51,911 bases of DNA from positions 1 to 51,911 of the forward strand of contig JANYJA010000117.1 in NCBI GenBank assembly GCA_025358575.1, read 5' to 3'. Made by a program: the position numbers and the translations under genes. The stretch comes from Terriglobia bacterium (GTDB lineage: Bacteria; Acidobacteriota; Terriglobia; Bryobacterales; Bryobacteraceae). Under the pieces are notes generated by a model. It was given only the letters and a program-made list of their open reading frames with translations, did no database searches and was not told the origin of the DNA. Position 1 is the stretch's first letter. The number at the start of each line of letters is the position of its first letter. Shown one piece after another: positions 1 to 50,780 of this stretch.

Positions 1-2740
1 CCACGGTGATTTTACGCGAGAGATCGCCCTTGGCGACGGCTGTCGTGACTTCCGCAATGTTGCGAACTTGGTTAGTCAAGTTGCCGGCCATGAAGTTCAC
101 ACTGTCTGTCAAATCCTTCCACGTTCCCGCGACCCCCTTTACAACCGCCTGTCCGCCCAGCTTACCTTCGGTGCCCACTTCGCGCGCCACGCGAGTCACT
201 TCCGAAGCGAACGAGCTGAGCTGATCCACCATGGTGTTGATAGTGTTCTTCAATTCCAAAATTTCACCGCGCACATCCACCGTGATTTTGCGCGATAAAT
301 CGCCGTTGGCCACCGCGGTAGTCACTCCCGCAATATTACGCACCTGGTTCGTCAGGTTGCTGGCCATGGAATTCACGCTATCCGTGAGATCTTTCCATGT
401 TCCGGCAACGCCGCGCACATCAGCCTGTCCGCCAAGCTTGCCTTCAGTCCCAACCTCGCGGGCGACGCGCGTAACTTCTGAAGCGAATGAACTGAGCTGA
501 TCTACCATTGTGTTGATGGTGTTTTTCAGCTCCAAAATTTCCCCGCGAACGTCGACTGTAATTTTGGTCGAAAGATCACCGCGAGCTACCGCGGTAGTTA
601 CTTCAGCGATGTTTCGCACCTGAGCCGTAAGGTTGCCTCCCATGGAATTCACACTATCCGTGAGATCTTTCCACGTTCCCGCGACCCCCTTCACATCGGC
701 TTGGCCGCCCAATTTACCCTCCGTGCCAACCTCGCGCGCCACGCGCGTGACCTCCGAAGCGAATGCATTTAACTGATCCACCATCGTATTGATAGTATTT
801 TTCAGTTCGAGAATTTCGCCGCGAACGTCCACGGTAATCTTGCGCGAGAGATCGCCTTTGGCGACGGCTGTCGTCACCTCGGCAATATTACGGACCTGAT
901 TAGTCAAATTTCCGGCCATGGAATTGACGCTTTCGGTAAGATCGCGCCATGTTCCCGCAACGCCACGCACTTCCGCTTGGCCGCCGAGCTTCCCCTCGGT
1001 ACCCACCTCGCGGGCGACGCGGGTTACTTCCGATGCAAACGAGCTGAGCTGTTCCACCATCGTGTTGATGGTGTTTTTCAGCTCCAGAATCTCGCCACGC
1101 GCGTCCACGGTGATCTTGGTGGTCAAGTCGCCGCGGGCCACGGCCGTTGTGACGCCCGCGATGTTACGGACCTGATTCGTCAGATTGCTGGCCATGGAGT
1201 TCACGCTCTCAGTGAGATCGCGCCATGTGCCCGCGACGCCTGTTACCTCCGCCTGGCCCCCAAGTTTCCCCTCTGTGCCGACCTCTCTGGCAACACGTGT
1301 AACTTCCGATGCGAATGAACTGAGCTGATCCACCATGGTGTTGATGGTGTTCTTCAGTTCGAGAATTTCGCCGCGAACGTCCACCGTAATCTTGCGCGAC
1401 AGATCGCCTTTGGCGACAGCCGTTGTGACCTCGGCAATATTACGCACCTGAGCCGTGAGGTTTCGGGCCATGGAGTTCACGCTCTCGGTGAGATCTCGCC
1501 ATGTTCCCGCGACTCCTCGTACCTCAGCCTGTCCGCCCAGCTTTCCTTCGGTGCCAACTTCCCGCGCCACGCGCGTTACTTCCGACGCAAACGAACTAAG
1601 TTGATCGACCATGGTGTTAATTGTGTTCTTAAGTTCCAAAATTTCGCCACGCACGTCGACCGTGATTTTGCGGGAAAGATCGCCGTTGGCCACGGCCGTT
1701 GTCACTTCGGCAATGTTACGCACCTGCGCGGTCAGATTTCCCGCCATGGAATTGACGCTGTCCGTAAGATCTTTCCACACGCCGCCGACACCCTTCACCT
1801 CCGCCTGCCCGCCCAGCTCTCCTTCGGTTCCCACTTCACGCGCAACGCGTGTAACTTCCGAGGCAAATGAGCTGAGCTGATCCACCATGGTGTTGATCGT
1901 GTTCTTGAGTTCCAAAATTTCGCCGCGCACGTCGACCGTGATTTTGCGGGAAAGATCGCCGTTGGCCACGGCCGTCGTTACTTCGGCGATATTTCGGACC
2001 TGTGCAGTGAGGTTACCGGCCATCGAATTGACGCTATCGGTCAAATCCTTCCACGTGCCGGCAACGCCTTTCACTTGCGCCTGACCGCCCAGCTCCCCTT
2101 CCGTACCCACTTCACGAGCTACGCGAGTTACTTCCGATGCAAAGGCATTGAGCTGATCCACCATGGTGTTGATGGTGTTCTTAAGTTCCAGGATTTCGCC
2201 TTGCGCATCGACGGTTATCTTGGTCGATAAATCTCCTCGCGCTACGGCCGTAGTTACACCGGCGATGTTACGAACTTGATTGGTCAAGTTGCCGGCCATG
2301 GAGTTTACGCTGTCCGTTAAATCCTTCCACACACCGCCGACGCCTTTGACCACAGCCTGTCCGCCGAGCTTGCCGTCGGTTCCGACTTCACGCGCCACCC
2401 GGGTCACTTCCGATGCAAACGAACTGAGCTGATCCACCATGGTGTTGATGGTGTTCTTCAGCTCCAGAATCTCGCCGCGCGCGTCCACGGTGATCTTACG
2501 GTGATCTTGGTCGTGAGATCGCCTTTAGCGACGGCAGTGGTAACGCCCGCGATGTTACGCACCTGGTTAGTCAAGTTGCTAGCCATGGAGTTTACGCTTT
2601 CGGTGAGATCTTTCCACGTTCCAGCCACGCCTTTCACAACGGCCTGTCCGCCCAGCTTGCCTTCGGTGCCGACTTCTCGCGCCACTCGGGTGGCCTCGGA
2701 AGCGAAGGAATTAAGCTGTTCCACCATAGTGTTCACCACC
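1..2740 (-). repeat. Tandem 276-bp HAMP-coding repeats, about ten units
   Basis: The landmark encoding MVDQL recurs at 221, 497, 773, 1049, 1325, 1601, 1877, 2153 and 2429 with a constant 276-bp step (92 codons), and then at 2716 with a 287-bp step caused by the 11-bp duplication. Units differ mainly before KITVD, reading either RKITVD or TKITVD. Neighbouring units such as 1601-1876 and 1877-2152 are nearly identical over long stretches, which suggests recent duplication or gene conversion. Confidence 0.93.
2487..2508. repeat. 11-bp direct tandem duplication causing a frameshift
   Basis: The 11-mer acggtgatctt occurs at 2487-2497 and again at 2498-2508. All other HAMP units carry one copy at the corresponding KITVD codons. 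The extra copy changes the unit length from 276 to 287 and creates the stop that ends at 2458. It may be a replication slip, a switchable site or an assembly error in a repetitive gene. Confidence 0.93.
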
Positions 2741-44264: not shown

Positions 44265-45254
44265 TTACTCTGGCATCGTAGCTTCGACGCGCTTGGGATC
44301 GAGCCGCCACACCGTCCCAGCCTCCAGGTTCGACAGCCACACCGAGCCGGCCCCTACGCGGATGGCATCGCCGCCTTTTCCCACAAACTGCTGCGCCACT
44401 TTGTTCGATGCCGGATCGATCCGCGACACCGGAAAGCCGAACGACGTCACCCAAACCGATCCCTCCCCAGCCGAGATATCGCCCCCCTCTCCGGGAACGC
44501 CGACTTCGATAGTCGCGACTACCTTATTCGTCTTCGGATCGATCCGAGACACGTTGCCTTCCGTCTGATTCAGCGTCCACACCGCACCCTCGCCTACCGC
44601 AAGGAAGCGCGGCCCTTTACCCACCGCGATCGTTTCGACCACCAAATTGGTATTCGGATCCACCCGGCTCACCGAATTGCCCGCGCTGCTGGTCACCCAG
44701 ATCGCTTTCTCTCCAAACACCGGGCAGAACGATCCTGGCGGCAGCGTGATTTCGGCGACGATTTTGTTGTCCGCCGGATCGATGCGCGCCAGCGTCCCCT
44801 TGGCGTCCGTCATCAGCCAGACGCTGCCAGCCCCCGCCGCGATATAGCCTTCCGTATTCCCGATTGTGATGGGAAAAGTAGCGGTCACTTTGGCGGTCTT
44901 CAGATCCACGCGCGAGATGGTCTGGTCGCCGCAGTTGGGCACCCACAGGCTGCCAAATCCGATAGCCAACCCTGAGCACGGCTTATTCCCGACGGTCACG
45001 ACCTCGGCAACCTTGTTGGTTTTCGGATCCAGCTTAAAAACCGCGTTCTTCGGCTTGTTAGATACCCAAATCGCATCGCCGACCACCACCAGCCAGTCCG
45101 GCGCCCCTGGGACGGGAAAGACCGCTTCTGGCGTGAGTTTGGCGATTGGAGTCTGCATGCCCGGCGTCTTCACGCCTGTTTTTGGGGCGGCTTTCTGAGC
45201 GGCCATGCAAGAGGACACAAAAAGCAACGCGGAAGCCGCGTGACGGATGCGCAT
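44265..45254 (-). CDS. Beta-propeller (virginiamycin B lyase/YVTN-like) lipoprotein
   Basis: The 329-residue protein has a signal sequence with a lipobox-like FVSSC, suggesting a lipid-anchored form. Repeats with a common core (GAPDWLVVVGDAIWVSNKPKNAVFKLDPKTNKVAEV, GSLWVPNCGDQTISRVDLKT, GSVWLMTDAKGTLARIDPAD and similar) form about six to seven propeller blades. Vgb-like propellers act as enzymes or as binding scaffolds; this one lacks evidence for a particular activity. It is divergent from iscR with 100 bp between them. Confidence 0.88.
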   Translation of the reverse strand: MRIRHAASALLFVSSCMAAQKAAPKTGVKTPGMQTPIAKLTPEAVFPVPGAPDWLVVVGDAIWVSNKPKNAVFKLDPKTNKVAEVVTVGNKPCSGLAIGFGSLWVPNCGDQTISRVDLKTAKVTATFPITIGNTEGYIAAGAGSVWLMTDAKGTLARIDPADNKIVAEITLPPGSFCPVFGEKAIWVTSSAGNSVSRVDPNTNLVVETIAVGKGPRFLAVGEGAVWTLNQTEGNVSRIDPKTNKVVATIEVGVPGEGGDISAGEGSVWVTSFGFPVSRIDPASNKVAQQFVGKGGDAIRVGAGSVWLSNLEAGTVWRLDPKRVEATMPE

Positions 45255-45298
45255 ATTCTAGCTTAAGCTGGTATCGCCTAAAAGTGACGACCGCTGCC

Positions 45299-45327
45299 TT
45301 GACAGTCTCTTTCCGAAGCGGTACCTT
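45299..45327 (+). promoter_or_regulatory. Sigma-70-like promoter of the isc operon
   Basis: A perfect TTGACA (45299-45304) is followed by a 17-base spacer and TACCTT (45322-45327). Transcription should start near 45334, within the IscR operator just downstream, and 20 bases before the iscR ATG. Confidence 0.65.
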
Positions 45328-45328
45328 G

Positions 45329-45353
45329 ATATGGGACTGAATTAGTCCACTAT
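45329..45353 (+). promoter_or_regulatory. Type-1 IscR operator
   Basis: The 25 bases before iscR match the E. coli type-1 IscR consensus (ATA-n3-GACT-n5-AGTC-n3-TAT) at about 21 positions, including every fixed base: ATA at 45329-45331, GACT at 45335-45338, AGTC at 45344-45347 and TAT at 45351-45353. It is an almost perfect palindrome, lies over the predicted start point and would let [2Fe-2S]-IscR repress its own operon. Confidence 0.72.
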
Positions 45354-45354
45354 C

Positions 45355-45828
45355 ATGCTCAAGCTTACCAAAAAGGCCGATTACGGTTTGCTGGCGATGC
45401 GGCATTTGGCGGTTAGCGCGCGCGGGGCGGCGAGTGCCAAAGAGATCGCCGACGCTTATTCAATCCCGCTGCCTCTTCTGGCGAAAATTCTGCAGAAGTT
45501 GACGAAATCGGGGGTTTTGCAGTCACTGGCGGGGACAAACGGGGGCTATAAGCTGGCCCGTCTACCTCAGAAGATCAGCGCGCTTGAGGTGATTCGGGCG
45601 CTGGATGGACCCATCGTCCTCACGTCTTGTACGGGGAGCCACGGGGATTGCGACCAGTCCGAAAAATGCACCATCCGCGAGCCGTTGCGGCGCGTGCATG
45701 AGGCCATCGTCGAGTTGTTCAACGGATTGAGCATCGCTGAGATTGCAACCGATGGACCTAAACAGGAAGGTCCGTCATCTATTCATCATGCGCGCGCGGG
45801 CGAACCCGCGGGGCTGCATGTGTTGTGA
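45355..45828 (+). CDS. iscR: Rrf2-family Fe-S cluster assembly regulator IscR
   Basis: The 157-residue product has the Rrf2 winged helix-turn-helix (KLTKKADYGLLAMRHLAV, SIPLPLLAKILQKLTKSGVLQSLAG, NGGYKLARLP) and three cysteines at about 92, 99 and 105 that ligate a [2Fe-2S] cluster. The spacing is C-x6-C-x5-C, one residue longer in the first interval than the E. coli C-x5-C-x5-C. The start sits directly after a type-1 IscR operator and a promoter, indicating autorepression. It is the first gene of the isc operon; iscS follows 12 bp later. Confidence 0.95.
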   Translation: MLKLTKKADYGLLAMRHLAVSARGAASAKEIADAYSIPLPLLAKILQKLTKSGVLQSLAGTNGGYKLARLPQKISALEVIRALDGPIVLTSCTGSHGDCDQSEKCTIREPLRRVHEAIVELFNGLSIAEIATDGPKQEGPSSIHHARAGEPAGLHVL

Positions 45829-45840
45829 GGAAAGTTATTC

Positions 45841-47055
45841 ATGAAGACGCCGGTTTATTTCGATAATCACGCTACCACGCAGATGGACCCGAGAGTCCTG
45901 AAGGCAATGCTGCCTTATTTCACAGAGCATTTTGGGAATGCGGCGAGCCGCAACCACAGCTTTGGATGGGAAGCCGAGAAGGCCGTCGACAAGGCGCGCA
46001 AGCAGATTGCGGATCTGATTGGCGCGACGCCGAAAGAGATCATTTTTACCAGCGGGGCCACGGAGTCGAACAACCTGGCGATTAAAGGCGTGGCGGAGAT
46101 GTATGGCGAGAAGGGCAACCACATTATTACCGCGGCCACGGAGCACAAAGCGGTGCTCGACACGTGCAAGAAGCTCGAGAAGGAAGGCTTCCGCGTTACC
46201 TATCTGCCGTTGAAGGAAGACGGGCTGCTGGACCTGGATCTGCTGCGGCAAGCGATCACCGACAAGACGATTCTGGTCACGATCATGTACGCCAACAATG
46301 AGATTGGCGTGATCCAGCCGATTGCCGAGATCGGCAAGATTTGCCACGAGCGGGGCGTCTTGTTCCACACCGATGGTGTGCAGGCGGTGGGCAAGGTTCC
46401 GGTGAACGTGATCAAGGACAACATCGACATGATGTCGATCACCGGGCACAAGATTTACGGACCGAAGGGCGTCGGCGCGTTGTATGTGCGACGGAAAGGT
46501 CCGCGGGTGCAATTGACGGCGCAGATGGATGGCGGGGGACATGAGCGCGGGATGCGGTCCGGCACTATGAATACGCCGGGTATCGTGGGCCTGGGCGAAG
46601 CCTGTGCGATCTGCCAGCAGGATATGGCGGAAGAGTCCAAGCGCCTGAGCCACCTTCGCGACAAGCTGAAGAGCAAGCTGGAATCCGAGCTGGACGAAGT
46701 GTTCATCAATGGCTCGATGGAGCACCGACTGCCGCACAATTTGAACATGAGCTTTGCGTACGTCGAGGGCGAATCGCTGTTGATGGGCATCAACGATATT
46801 GCGGTGTCGAGCGGATCGGCTTGCACTTCGGCGACTCTGGAACCGAGCTACGTCTTAAAGGCTCTGGGGGTGGGTGACGATCTGGCGCATACGTCCATTC
46901 GTTTCGGCTTGGGCCGGTTCAATACCGAAGAAGAAGTCGACTATGTGGCCGACCGGATGATATCCGTGGTGCGCAAGTTGCGCGATCTTTCGCCGCTTTA
47001 CGAAATGGCGAAAGAGGGGATCGATTTGAGCAAGGTTCAGTGGGCAGCCGAGTAG
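45841..47055 (+). CDS. iscS: Cysteine desulfurase IscS
   Basis: The 404-residue PLP enzyme has the same length as E. coli IscS. It shows [41 protein letters not shown], the PLP lysine in [20 protein letters not shown] and the catalytic cysteine loop [21 protein letters not shown]. The loop and the C-terminal tail ending [11 protein letters not shown] are those of group I IscS rather than SufS or NifS. It supplies sulfur for clusters on IscU. GAGGAAA lies 8 bases upstream of ATG 45841. Confidence 0.98.
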
Positions 47056-47093: not shown

Positions 47094-47510
47094 ATGGCTT
47101 ATTCCGATAAAGTTTTGGATCATTACAACAACCCGCGCAACGTGGGTTCAATGGATCGCAACGACCCCAATGTGGGCACGGGCATGGTAGGGGCACCCGA
47201 ATGCGGTGACGTGATGAAGCTGCAGTTGAAGGTGAACGAAACTTCGGGGATCATTGAAGACGCCAAGTTCAAGACGTTCGGCTGCGGCAGTGCGATCGCT
47301 TCGTCGTCGCTGGCGACTGAATGGCTGAAGGGTAAGTCGGTGGATGAAGCGCTGTTGATTAAGAACACGGCGATTGTGAACGAGCTCAGCTTGCCGCCGG
47401 TGAAGATTCACTGCTCGGTGCTGGCCGAAGATGCGATCAAGGCTGCAATTTCCGACTACAAGAGCAAGCAGACGACGCGCAAGCCGGTTGCGGAAGCGGT
47501 CGCTCACTAA
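47094..47510 (+). CDS. iscU: Fe-S cluster scaffold protein IscU
   Basis: The 138-residue scaffold has the cluster ligands in GAPECGDVMKLQ, the second cysteine in KTFGCGSAIASSSLATEW, and the third in LPPVKIHCSVLAEDAI, where LPPVK is the segment recognised by HscA. An AGGAGA lies 8 bases before ATG 47094. It builds [2Fe-2S] and [4Fe-4S] clusters that HscA/HscB release to targets. The alanine/lysine-rich C-terminal tail (TTRKPVAEAVAH) is slightly longer than in E. coli. Confidence 0.98.
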   Translation: MAYSDKVLDHYNNPRNVGSMDRNDPNVGTGMVGAPECGDVMKLQLKVNETSGIIEDAKFKTFGCGSAIASSSLATEWLKGKSVDEALLIKNTAIVNELSLPPVKIHCSVLAEDAIKAAISDYKSKQTTRKPVAEAVAH

Positions 47511-47522
47511 GGAAACACGTCA

Positions 47523-47858
47523 ATGGTGGAAACGGCTGCGATTCAGGTAACTCCGAAGGCGATCGCGAAAATCAAGAACGCGTTCGCCAAAGAAGGGGTG
47601 GAGGGCGGACTGCGCCTCGGCATTCTGGGCGGGGGTTGTTCCGGGCTGAGCTACCAATTCAAGTTCGACACGAAGACGAGACCCAATGACCGCGTTTTCG
47701 ACTTCGATGGTGTTAAGATTCTGATCGATCCGAAGAGCTTGGTATATCTGGCAGGCCTGACGCTGGATTATAAGGAGTCGCTGATGCAGTCCGGGTTTGT
47801 CTTCGATAATCCGAACGCGCAGAAAAGCTGCGGCTGCGGCACGTCTTTCGCGGGCTAG
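47523..47858 (+). CDS. iscA: A-type Fe-S carrier protein IscA
   Basis: The 111-residue HesB/IscA-type carrier has the three conserved cysteines: LGGGCSGLSYQF and CGCGTSF at the C-terminus. It carries clusters from IscU to apo-enzymes, mostly [4Fe-4S] ones. It follows iscU by 12 bp and precedes hscB by 15 bp. No unusual features. Confidence 0.97.
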   Translation: MVETAAIQVTPKAIAKIKNAFAKEGVEGGLRLGILGGGCSGLSYQFKFDTKTRPNDRVFDFDGVKILIDPKSLVYLAGLTLDYKESLMQSGFVFDNPNAQKSCGCGTSFAG

Positions 47859-47873: not shown

Positions 47874-48503
47874 ATGGCCGCGGAAGAAATTTGCTGGAAG
47901 TGTGGCCAACTTTTTTCCGGGCATTTTTGCAATGCATGCGGGGCTATTCAGCCCCCGGCAGCGAACTACTTTGACTTCTTTGAACTGCCACCACATTTGA
48001 ACCTGGACGCGGCGGAGTTGGAGAAGCGCTTCTATGCGCTGAGCCGCCGATTGCATCCTGACGTGTTTGCGCGGCGAAGCGAGCGAGAGCAGCGATATTC
48101 GCTGGATGCGACAGCGGTCTTGAACGACGGTTATCGGGCATTACGCGACCCCATCAATCGAGCTGAGTACCTGCTGAAAGAGAGCGGGTTCGATATTGGG
48201 GAGCAGAAATCGAACCCAGTGCCGCCGGAGCTGCTGGAAGAGGTGTTCGAGCTGAACATGGCGCTAGAGGATCTTCGGTCGGGCGACTCGGACGCGGCTC
48301 CTCAGCTCGAAGACGCGCGCACGAAGTTTGTGGCGATGCGCGAACACATTGATCGCGATCTGTCGGCGAAGTTCGCGGCGTACGACGAATCGGAATCGCG
48401 CGAACTGTTGACGGAGATTCGCGGCGTGCTGAATCGCCGGCGGTACGTGCGCAACCTGGTGAATGAAGTGGAGAAGGCGTTGAGCGGCTATGTTCCAAAT
48501 TGA
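47874..48503 (+). CDS. hscB: Fe-S biogenesis co-chaperone HscB with N-terminal four-cysteine zinc-ribbon-like module
   Basis: The 209-residue J-type co-chaperone has HPD in [12 protein letters not shown] and a C-terminal three-helix IscU-binding domain ([21 protein letters not shown]). Before the J domain are two CxxC knuckles, [16 protein letters not shown], followed by [17 protein letters not shown]. coli HscB lacks these; human HSCB has a similar tetracysteine metal-binding module (CWNCG...CPQC) that leads into the J domain through an almost identical linker. The module probably binds zinc. The gene overlaps hscA by 14 bp, as expected of partners. Confidence 0.95.
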
Positions 48504-50331
48504 TTTCGGCGAAAGTTCGGAGACGGTGGTCGGCATCGACCTGGGCACGACTAACAGCCTGGTGGCTTACATGGATGCCGCAACGCCGCGGGTGATTCGC
48601 GGCGAGGATGGCGACAATCTGGTTCCGAGCATTGTGTCGCTGGCGCCCAATGGCGAAATTGTGGTGGGGAATCCGGCGCGGCAGATGCTGATCGACCGTC
48701 CCGACCGGACGGTGTATTCCGCAAAACGGCTGATGGGCCGCGGCATTGGGGACGTGCAGGATGAGCTGAAGCTGTTCCCGTTCCGCGTGGCTGAGGGCAG
48801 CGAGCAGGTTGTTCGGATACAGTTGGGCGAGAAGCAATTCACGCCGCCGGAGATTGCCGCATTCGTGCTGCGGCAGTTGAAGAAGAACGCCGAAGCGGCT
48901 CTGGAGACGCAGGTGACGAAAGCCGTGATCACGGTTCCGGCTTACTTCAACGATGCGCAACGTCAGGCAACGAAGGATGCGGGGCGCATTGCCGGGCTTG
49001 AGGTGCTGCGGCTGGTGAATGAGCCGACCGCGGCCGCACTGGCATATGGTCTCGATAAACGCAAAAAGGGAACGGTCGCGGTTTATGACCTGGGCGGCGG
49101 GACTTTCGATATTTCGATTTTGAAACTGCACGACGGAATTTTCGAAGTATTGGCGACCAATGGGGATACCCACCTGGGTGGCGACGACATCGATAATTTG
49201 CTCATCCATATTGCGCTTGAAGATATTCAAAGCGAGTGGGGCGAGGACCTTTCAATCCATGGCGAAGCGGTGCAGACGCTGCGGCGCGCCGTGATCGCGG
49301 CGAAAGAATCGCTCTCTTTCTTGCCATCGGCGCAGATGGAATTTGCGTTTCACGGCAAGACGTACCATCGCGAAATCACGCGGGAATTATTTGACCGGCT
49401 GATCACCGGGATTGTGGATCGCACGCTAGGCCCCTGCCGCGATTGCATTCGGGACGCGGGCGTTTCCGTTGAGCAGATTGATGAAGTGGTGCTGGTCGGG
49501 GGGTCGACGCGCATTCCGTTGGTGCGCTCGGCGGTCGAGAAGCTGTTCCGCGCCAAGCCGCACACGGATCTGAACCCGGATGAAGTGGTGGCGCTGGGAG
49601 CGGCGGTGCAAGCTGGCATTCTCTCCGGCACGCTTGAGGACAATTTGCTGTTGGACGTGACGCCGCTTTCGCTCGGTATCGAGACAATGGGAGGGGTGGT
49701 GTCGAAGATCATCCATCGGAACTCGACGATTCCGGCCAGCGCGAGCGAATCGTTTACGACTTCAGTCGATGGCCAGCGCAATGTTCTGATTAATGTGGTG
49801 CAGGGTGAGCGCGAACTGGTGAAGGATAACCGTCCACTGGCGAGGTTCGATCTGAAAGATATCGATCCACTGCCGGCCGGTATGGCGCGAATTGAAGTGC
49901 GCTTCCTGATTGACGCGAACGGGATTCTGAACGTGACGGCGCGCGATGCTCGCACGGGTAAGGAGCAGTCGATGGACGTGAGGCCGATGTATGGGCTCAC
50001 GGATGAGCAGGTGGAGGCGATGTACAAAGCTTCCATAGACAATGCGGAAGCGGATTTTCACGCACGGCAGCTGGCGGAAGTCCGGGTGGACGCCGACGCG
50101 ATTCTTGCCGCGACGGAGAAGGCGCGGCAGAGCGATGCTTATACCGACCTTCCCGAGGAAGAGCGGCAGGCAATCGCGAAGGCTGTGAACGAGCTGCTGC
50201 TGTTGTATCACGGTCAAGATCATCTGCAGATTCGGTCGAAGATCGAAGAGCTGAATGCGGCCACCATGACGCTGGCTGAGAACATGATGAACGCGGCCGT
50301 GAAAGGCGCGCTGAAAGGAACTAAACTTTAA
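48490..50331 (+). CDS. hscA: Hsp70-family Fe-S chaperone HscA
   Basis: The 613-residue chaperone has the Hsp70 ATPase signatures [27 protein letters not shown] and [16 protein letters not shown], and a substrate-binding domain ([38 protein letters not shown]). Its order after hscB and its size (about 616 in E. coli) mark it as HscA rather than DnaK. It binds the LPPVK segment of IscU with HscB and drives cluster release. Its start lies inside the last codons of hscB; iscX follows 3 bp after its stop. Confidence 0.97.
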
Positions 50332-50334
50332 ACC

Positions 50335-50547
50335 ATGCCTGGACTCACGTGGGACCACACCGAAAATATTGCGCTGGCGTTGCAGGAGGCGCACCCGGAG
50401 ATCGATCCGCTGCACATTCGGTACACCGATTTGCACAAGTGGATTACGGAACTAGCGGACTTCGGCGACGACCCGACGAAGTCAACCGAGGGCAAGCTTG
50501 AAGCCATCCAAATGGCTTGGTATGAAGAGTTTCAGGAAAATCAGTAG
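50335..50547 (+). CDS. iscX: Fe-S assembly protein IscX
   Basis: The 70-residue acidic product matches Isc[53 protein letters not shown]. It binds IscS and iron and modulates the desulfurase. In the classic operon fdx, coding for a [2Fe-2S] ferredoxin, lies between hscA and iscX; only 3 bp separate them here, so fdx is absent from this operon. It ends the isc cluster; rpmI follows 38 bp later. Confidence 0.97.
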
Positions 50548-50585
50548 GCTGTGATACTATTGAAAAGTTCCCGAGAAAATTCGAT

Positions 50586-50780
50586 ATGCCGAAGTTAAAG
50601 ACTCACAAAGGCGCGGCCAAGCGGTTCAAGAAGACTGGAACCGGTCTAGTGGTGCGCTCACACGCGTTTGGGCGTCACATTCTGACGTCTAAATCGCGTA
50701 AGAGAAAAAATAAGCTTCACACCACTGTGGTTGCCGATAAATCAGACCAAGCCAAGTTGAAGCGGATGATTCCCTACTAG
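50586..50780 (+). CDS. rpmI: 50S ribosomal protein L35
   Basis: The 64-residue basic protein is typical: [34 protein letters not shown]. It is followed after 85 bp by rplT. The infC gene that normally precedes rpmI-rplT is not here; iscX lies upstream. A 38-bp gap separates it from iscX and no clear promoter was recognised in it. Confidence 0.97.

Follow-up and report, generated by a model that had tools for sequence, protein, structure and literature searches.

A conserved GGAC-N7-GTCC operator at the isc promoter of an acidobacterium and its probable reader, a SUF-regulator/RisR-like Rrf2 protein

The isc locus and its genome

The window, by which we mean the whole 51,911-nt stretch of DNA that was analysed, holds an isc operon headed by the gene of an Rrf2-family regulator, with a candidate operator between this gene and its promoter. 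The best named matches are MAGs of the Bryobacterales, an order within Acidobacteriota, Terriglobia, in agreement with the first-pass annotation, which had presumed an acidobacterial host from the letters alone. The features referred to below are as follows.

45299..45304, + strand: -35 hexamer TTGACA (from the sequence; position of TTGAC conserved in relatives)
45322..45327, + strand: -10-like hexamer TACCTT after a 17-nt spacer (from the sequence; spacing conserved in relatives)
45329..45353, + strand: predicted operator (type-1 fit, uniqueness, 25.4 bits under a motif learned without the window)
45355..45828, + strand: Rrf2-family regulator, SUF-regulator/RisR-like by profiles, tree and alignment, 157 aa, with Asp9, Cys92, Cys99 and Cys105
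45841..47055, + strand: iscS, cysteine desulfurase (TIGR02006, 661.6 bits, cut-off 643.2)
47094..47510, + strand: iscU, scaffold (TIGR01999, 222.7 bits, cut-off 192.4)
47523..47858, + strand: iscA-type carrier (TIGR00049, 123.2 bits, cut-off 58.8)
47874..48503, + strand: hscB, co-chaperone with an N-terminal CxxC-x8-CxxC extension (TIGR00714, 53.9 bits, cut-off 46.75)
48490..50331, + strand: hscA, chaperone (TIGR01991, 729.6 bits, cut-off 708.55)
50335..50547, + strand: iscX (TIGR03412, 92.4 bits, cut-off 40.4)

The iscA-type carrier lies under the IscA equivalog cut-off (108 vs 150.6), and HscB is also matched by HSCB_C (25.6 bits, cut-off 22.1). No ferredoxin gene lies between hscA and iscX, since the former ends at 50331 and the latter starts at 50335. 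Downstream of iscX follow a 64-aa frame that by eye resembles ribosomal protein L35 and then rplT (window 50331-50780). The N-terminal extension of HscB (47874-48503) reads CWKC-x8-CNAC and has no Pfam match at E 0.001; it presumably resembles the metal-binding extension of eukaryotic HSC20, a feature that we take to be absent in E. coli.

SufB was not found in the window's genome by a search that was positive in 14 of 14 control genomes, 12 of them over the cut-off. It is present in 32 of the 61 genomes of the class sample and in two of nine in the window's own family; its absence is true of the window's genome and of many, not all, of its relatives. Because no SufB was found, a switch of the E. 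coli type-2/suf kind is not expected here. The genome encodes a second Rrf2 protein (L001, on G000:C7), 28% identical to the regulator, and the region upstream of its gene is without an operator of the GGAC-N7-GTCC type.

The operator and the promoter

Positions 45329-45353 of the forward strand read ATATGGGACTGAATTAGTCCACTAT, a 25-bp imperfect palindrome with the core GGAC-N7-GTCC. Against the E. coli IscR type-1 consensus ATASYYGACTRWWWYAGTCRRSTAT, as given in excerpted text of PMC6599224, 21 of 25 positions fit, including every one of the fixed bases ATA, GACT, AGTC and TAT; the deviations fall at positions 4, 5, 6 and 20. This count upholds the first-pass estimate of about 21 matches with all fixed bases present, as the sequence upholds the placement of the site between TTGACA-n17-TACCTT and the regulator ATG. 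The runner-up 25-mer in the 51.9-kb window scores 18, and shuffling the mononucleotides of the 100-bp intergenic region 20,000 times never produced a score as high as 21. A scan of the genome for further sites, proposed together with that annotation, returned 45329-45353 as the sole match in the 4,766,175-base assembly (4.77 Mb, 95.6% complete) of the relaxed pattern AWNNNVGACYNNNNNRGTCBNNNWT, which is symmetric and was drawn up after the relatives' sites were known; the reversed control gave no match in the same assembly.

Three of the four mismatches to the type-1 consensus, T4, G6 and C20, are the commonest bases of the operator in relatives; G5 is not. These three fit the operator of a group other than IscR, GGAC-N7-GTCC, for which footprints of Myxococcus RisR are described in excerpted text of PMC9973013.

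The operator directly follows TACCTT and ends 1 nt before the regulator ATG at 45355. TACCTT agrees with TATAAT at three of six positions, which is weak, and a consensus promoter scan did not report the TTGACA-n17-TACCTT promoter; the promoter is called because its spacing is conserved in relatives. Of the 127 loci in what we call the isc-type helix group, 60, the window included, have a TTGAC whose first base lies between -33 and -30 relative to the operator, and TANNN[TG] peaks at -8 to -6 with 71 occurrences; the corresponding distances in the window are -30 for TTGAC and -7 for TACCTT. The distance from operator to -35 element is narrow in this group and the distance from operator to ATG is wide, with 5th and 95th percentiles of about 24 and 91 for the 127 sites. 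Judged from the position of the -10 element, the operator in the window would lie over the expected start point.

Conservation in front of regulator homologs

Relatives were represented by 170 loci from Acidobacteriota genomes, window included and L001 left out; they comprise the best hits per search and a hand-picked weaker range, and a genome may in some cases have entered twice. IscS is encoded downstream of the regulator gene in 109 of the 110 nearer loci, window included, and the one locus that lacks it stops at a contig end; of the 60 loci with more distant homologs, no more than 28 gave an IscS hit. Over the 127 loci that contain both genes, regulator and IscS distances are correlated (Spearman 0.761; 0 of 500 permutations as high). 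To the alternative raised by the first-pass annotation, that the circuit was either kept or acquired with the operon, this correlation adds an argument in favour of a common descent of both genes inside the phylum.

The 160 non-redundant upstream regions, with the window left out, yielded a palindromic 25-mer motif at a log-likelihood of 1506, as compared with 35-41 when three shuffled sets were used. Conservation in it is strongest at A1, GAC (7-9), GTC (17-19) and T25. This relatives-only motif gives 25.4 bits for the window site; of the best scores from shuffled upstream regions, 99% fall under 6.4 bits, the level referred to here as the 99% null. A single E. coli isc site was scored, which we take to be iscRB; it fits the type-1 consensus at 22 of 25 positions and reaches 8.3 bits under the relatives' motif. 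Counting training data, 158 of the 170 homolog loci pass the 99% null; nine of the 12 loci that lack a site over this null have an IscS gene. When the motif was learned from 76 regions, 71 of the 84 others exceeded the 99% null and 57 exceeded every shuffle.

Variation of the operator seems to go along with the protein. At half-site position 7, a base other than G occurs in at least one half in 16 of 21 sites of homologs with V, I or A at residue 42, where GTAC often replaces GGAC, and in 0 of 127 sites of the isc-type helix group, all of these sites having been chosen by means of the motif. GAC/GTC operators are kept at six loci of the isc-type helix group without an IscS hit (L121, L130, L131, L134, L145 and L146), three of which (in G014, G134 and G028) have SufB just downstream; two further IscS-less loci, L114 and L143, have no operator site. 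Upstream of plasmid-borne homologs from Paraburkholderia, Legionella adelaidensis and Cupriavidus, drawn from 438 records with a match, the motif scores 18.4, 24.7 and 21.6 bits; two of these homologs are annotated as SUF regulators and stand before sufB, the third is unannotated. Overall, the operator seems to track the regulator protein rather than the pathway, which descent may explain. When protein positions were compared with operator bases by mutual information, the recognition helix did not stand out. With Glu40, 46 of 70 half-sites have C at operator position 6, as against 26 of 138 with Pro40, an association that may reflect shared descent.

Identity of the regulator

The regulator belongs to the Rrf2 superfamily (PF02082, 113.3 bits, cut-off 30). 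On the two IscR equivalog models it scores 73.8 bits (TIGR02010, cut-off 207.55) and 55.3 bits (NF008110, cut-off 275), whereas the E. coli IscR control reaches 220.2 and 344.7 bits, respectively. Among equivalog models, TIGR02944 (SUF regulator) fits it best; with 103 bits it stays below the cut-off of 110.65 and is therefore not a formal member, while one homolog, L126, passes with 116.3 bits. The regulator is 27% identical to E. coli IscR, 30% to T. potens IscR and 31% to CymR; for three proteobacterial homologs of SUF-regulator type the values are 34-38%. In a quick tree, rooted by hand on CymR and T. potens IscR, the regulator groups with these three homologs, and E. coli IscR falls outside, the excluding node being supported at 0.95; several inner nodes are weak. 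The structure model (pLDDT 84.8) gives Z scores of 18.2 to CymR, 16.2 to IscR E43A and 14.4 to NsrR, a fold comparison that does not tell IscR, NsrR and CymR apart.

E. coli IscR holds its [2Fe-2S] cluster through Cys92, Cys98, Cys104 and His107, according to excerpts of PMC6599224. The regulator keeps three cysteines and has Arg108 in the place of His107, and Pro, Ala and Lys stand where IscR has its recognition residues Ser40, Glu43 and Gln44. Among the 161 non-redundant homologs, window included, the three-Cys motif is found in 160, Asp at position 9 in 158 and Lys at position 44 in 159, and a His at the IscR ligand place occurs in one. The first-pass annotation had taken the protein for a [2Fe-2S] IscR; with the TIGR02010 score far below its cut-off, the missing histidine and the exchanged recognition residues, this identification is not supported. 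IscR orthology was rejected on profile scores, tree, ligands and recognition residues, and judged by them the regulator is a SUF-regulator/RisR-like Rrf2 protein. The site at 45329-45353 is a real, conserved operator that had been assigned to the wrong regulator; it fits the type-1 consensus at 21 of 25 positions, and three of its four mismatches follow the half-site of the other group.

Excerpted text of PMC5411485 on ScNsrR offers a precedent for the alternative chemistry. There, the [4Fe-4S] cluster takes its fourth ligand, Asp8, from the partner subunit, Ala44 and Lys45 occupy the places of IscR Glu43 and Gln44, and an IscR with Glu43 changed to Ala is described as binding type-1 sites in its apo form. 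Since the regulator has Ala43, it would be unsafe to assume for it the IscR link between site choice and cluster state. A [4Fe-4S] cluster is predicted, with Cys92, Cys99 and Cys105 as ligands and, probably, Asp9 from the other subunit as the fourth; Asp9 is a guess in this scheme, because Arg12, which forms a salt bridge with Asp8 in ScNsrR, is missing in the regulator and not conserved in the alignment. It is important to point out that ligand arguments are not absolute, since proteins named IscR differ in ligands and Cys spacing: Caulobacter IscR is given ligands Cys95/105/112/His115 in excerpts of PMC11475020, and Rhodobacter IscR is called a new type in a publication title.

Comparison with known systems

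The closest parallel is RisR of Myxococcus xanthus. Sourice et al. (PMC9973013) describe it as an Rrf2 repressor distant from IscR, placed in a group (IS6) that includes Acidobacteria, with a spectrum that suggests [4Fe-4S]. Its footprints, T(t/g)GAC-N7-GTCC(t/a), lie over the -10 element and the start of isc; it represses isc as holo-protein, and a Cys mutant loses repression; it is encoded with suf and controls both isc and suf (PMC9973013). The window site fits the footprint sequence at nine of the ten specified positions, the exception being the outer T of one half. The window thus shares with RisR an operator core GAC-N7-GTC over the -10 element and isc start, three cysteines and the lack of the IscR recognition residues. 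It differs in that the regulator heads the isc operon of a genome with one site and no SufB found, and in Cys spacing (C92/C99/C105 as against C92/C102/C108 in RisR). The regulator probably belongs to the RisR group and would work like RisR.

The SUF regulators of TIGR02944 are its best equivalog model and share the operator family, as seen in front of the three plasmid-borne homologs; unlike them, the regulator scores below the cut-off, its predicted target is isc, not suf, and its site has GGAC on both sides, whereas the V/I/A-42 group often has GTAC on one. With E. coli IscR it would share the logic of the circuit, a GACT-N5-AGTC core and ATA/TAT ends; cluster ligands, recognition helix and core-flanking bases differ, and the window's genome is without a found suf operon for a type-2 branch. 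The likeness to ScNsrR, as far as excerpts of PMC5411485 go, consists in the Asp at 8/9 and the Ala-Lys of the recognition helix; targets are different, and Arg12 is absent.

Extent of the regulon

A large regulon in the window's genome was considered and rejected: a pattern allowing two mismatches has 642 forward matches vs 609 in the control. Of ten near matches chosen for scoring among the matches listed, the best reaches 15.7 bits at window 887-911, in repeated sequence that by eye was taken as coding. Window 1-1500, which includes this near match, shows repeat units of about 280 bp that share near-identical phrases; by eye they could be tandem HAMP-type repeats in a long sensor protein encoded on the - strand.

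Summed over the class sample, the relaxed pattern has 106 forward matches vs 72 in the control, and 16 vs 1 in nine genomes of the window's family. Twenty matched stretches were read. Two genomes of the window's family have sites ahead of A-type carrier genes and three other genomes have them ahead of FTR1 permease genes, identities that rest on Pfam for one protein per kind; several of the remaining stretches fall within long open frames and have the look of chance matches. Of 30 FTR1 loci tested, five have the operator, four of them from one genus; of 30 A-type carrier loci tested, two have it. The window genome's own FTR1 gene and second A-type carrier gene have no site within 250 bp. In the window's genome, then, the circuit appears to serve isc autorepression alone, and in some relatives it appears wider, the FTR1 sites hinting at an iron regulon there. 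FTR1-type iron permease genes with an operator upstream are found at L235, L236, L237, L243-L246 and L265. One genome, G061 (L237-L242 and L143), has 13 pattern matches and a second regulator homolog, 47% identical; by eye, some of its sites precede TonB-type receptor-like and CbiX-like genes.

A model of isc autoregulation and its alternatives

We consider autoregulation of isc by a SUF-regulator/RisR-like repressor with a predicted [4Fe-4S] cluster the best reading, at a probability of roughly 0.77. A homodimer of the regulator loaded with its Fe-S cluster would bind the two GGAC half-sites of the operator and occupy both the stretch immediately downstream of the -10 element and the expected start point, so that the holo-protein represses its own operon, presumably transcribed as the single unit regulator-iscS-iscU-iscA-hscB-hscA-iscX. 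When clusters become scarce, under low iron or oxidants, the regulator would lose its cluster and leave the DNA, and the operon would then be expressed until cluster supply recovers. The operator of an Rrf2 regulator over the promoter of its own, neighbouring gene makes autorepression probable; of the [2Fe-2S]-IscR autorepression first proposed, this part stands and the identity of the regulator as IscR does not.

A genuine IscR circuit, with a [2Fe-2S] ortholog on a type-1 site, would account for the 21/25 consensus fit, for a regulator at the head of an isc operon and for three cysteines near the IscR spacing. Yet the regulator falls far under equivalog cut-offs that E. coli IscR exceeds, has neither the His ligand nor Ser40/Glu43/Gln44, and is closer to the SUF-regulator kind in identity (34-38% vs 27%) as well as in the tree (0.95); in relatives, moreover, operator positions 5 and 6 are not as a rule pyrimidines. 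We hold this reading to be improbable. The same operator and regulator could also answer to another signal, as a RirA-like iron sensor or an NsrR-like nitric oxide sensor: Asp9 and Ala43/Lys44 are as in ScNsrR, and relatives carry the operator before FTR1 (5/30 loci) and A-type carriers (2/30). However, the isc operon has the sole full match in the window's genome, and by eye no NO-defence gene was recognised among the frame starts inspected, which leaves a sensor of this kind unlikely, if worth bearing in mind.

Another reading has the palindrome work at the RNA level, folding into a 5'-terminal hairpin beside the start codon; it is suggested by the possible pairing of GGACT-GAATT-AGTCC and by an expected transcript that begins inside the operator, with the ATG about 20 nt later. 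Across 129 sites, however, the operator halves vary nearly independently, as expected of a dimer on DNA and not of an RNA stem: observed vs expected complementarity is 0.51/0.39 at position 6 and 0.60/0.50 at position 4, and the other ten positions are at most 0.01 over expectation. The wide ATG distance and narrow -35 distance speak against it as well, and 45150-45600 has no Rfam match up to E = 1. On the independence of the half-sites and the Rfam result we rejected the RNA hairpin, to which we give very little credence. A chance resemblance without function is least credible of all and practically negligible in view of uniqueness, conservation, held-out prediction and shuffle test.

Concluding remarks

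The autorepression logic proposed here is ordinary. What looked like an E. coli-like IscR circuit in an acidobacterium is reassigned to another regulator class, and the case carries a caution, namely that a type-1-like site beside an 'iscR' gene is no proof of a [2Fe-2S] IscR. Among the literature matches listed, no title concerned an acidobacterial isc operator; the motif described here comes from many Acidobacteriota and is open to immediate test.

Tentatively, and with more doubt than confidence, the operator code ATA-N3-GAC-N7-GTC-N3-TAT may be common to Rrf2 Fe-S repressors of different cluster chemistry across phyla, that is, to [2Fe-2S] IscR and to [4Fe-4S] RisR/SUF-regulator types. Its reader in Acidobacteriota would be an Asp-ligated [4Fe-4S] regulator, possibly extended in some lineages from isc autorepression to iron import in a RirA-like manner. 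The genome of the window has ISC, yielded no SufB and carries a single predicted site; it would offer a simple setting in which to ask how Fe-S supply is sensed without SUF backup.
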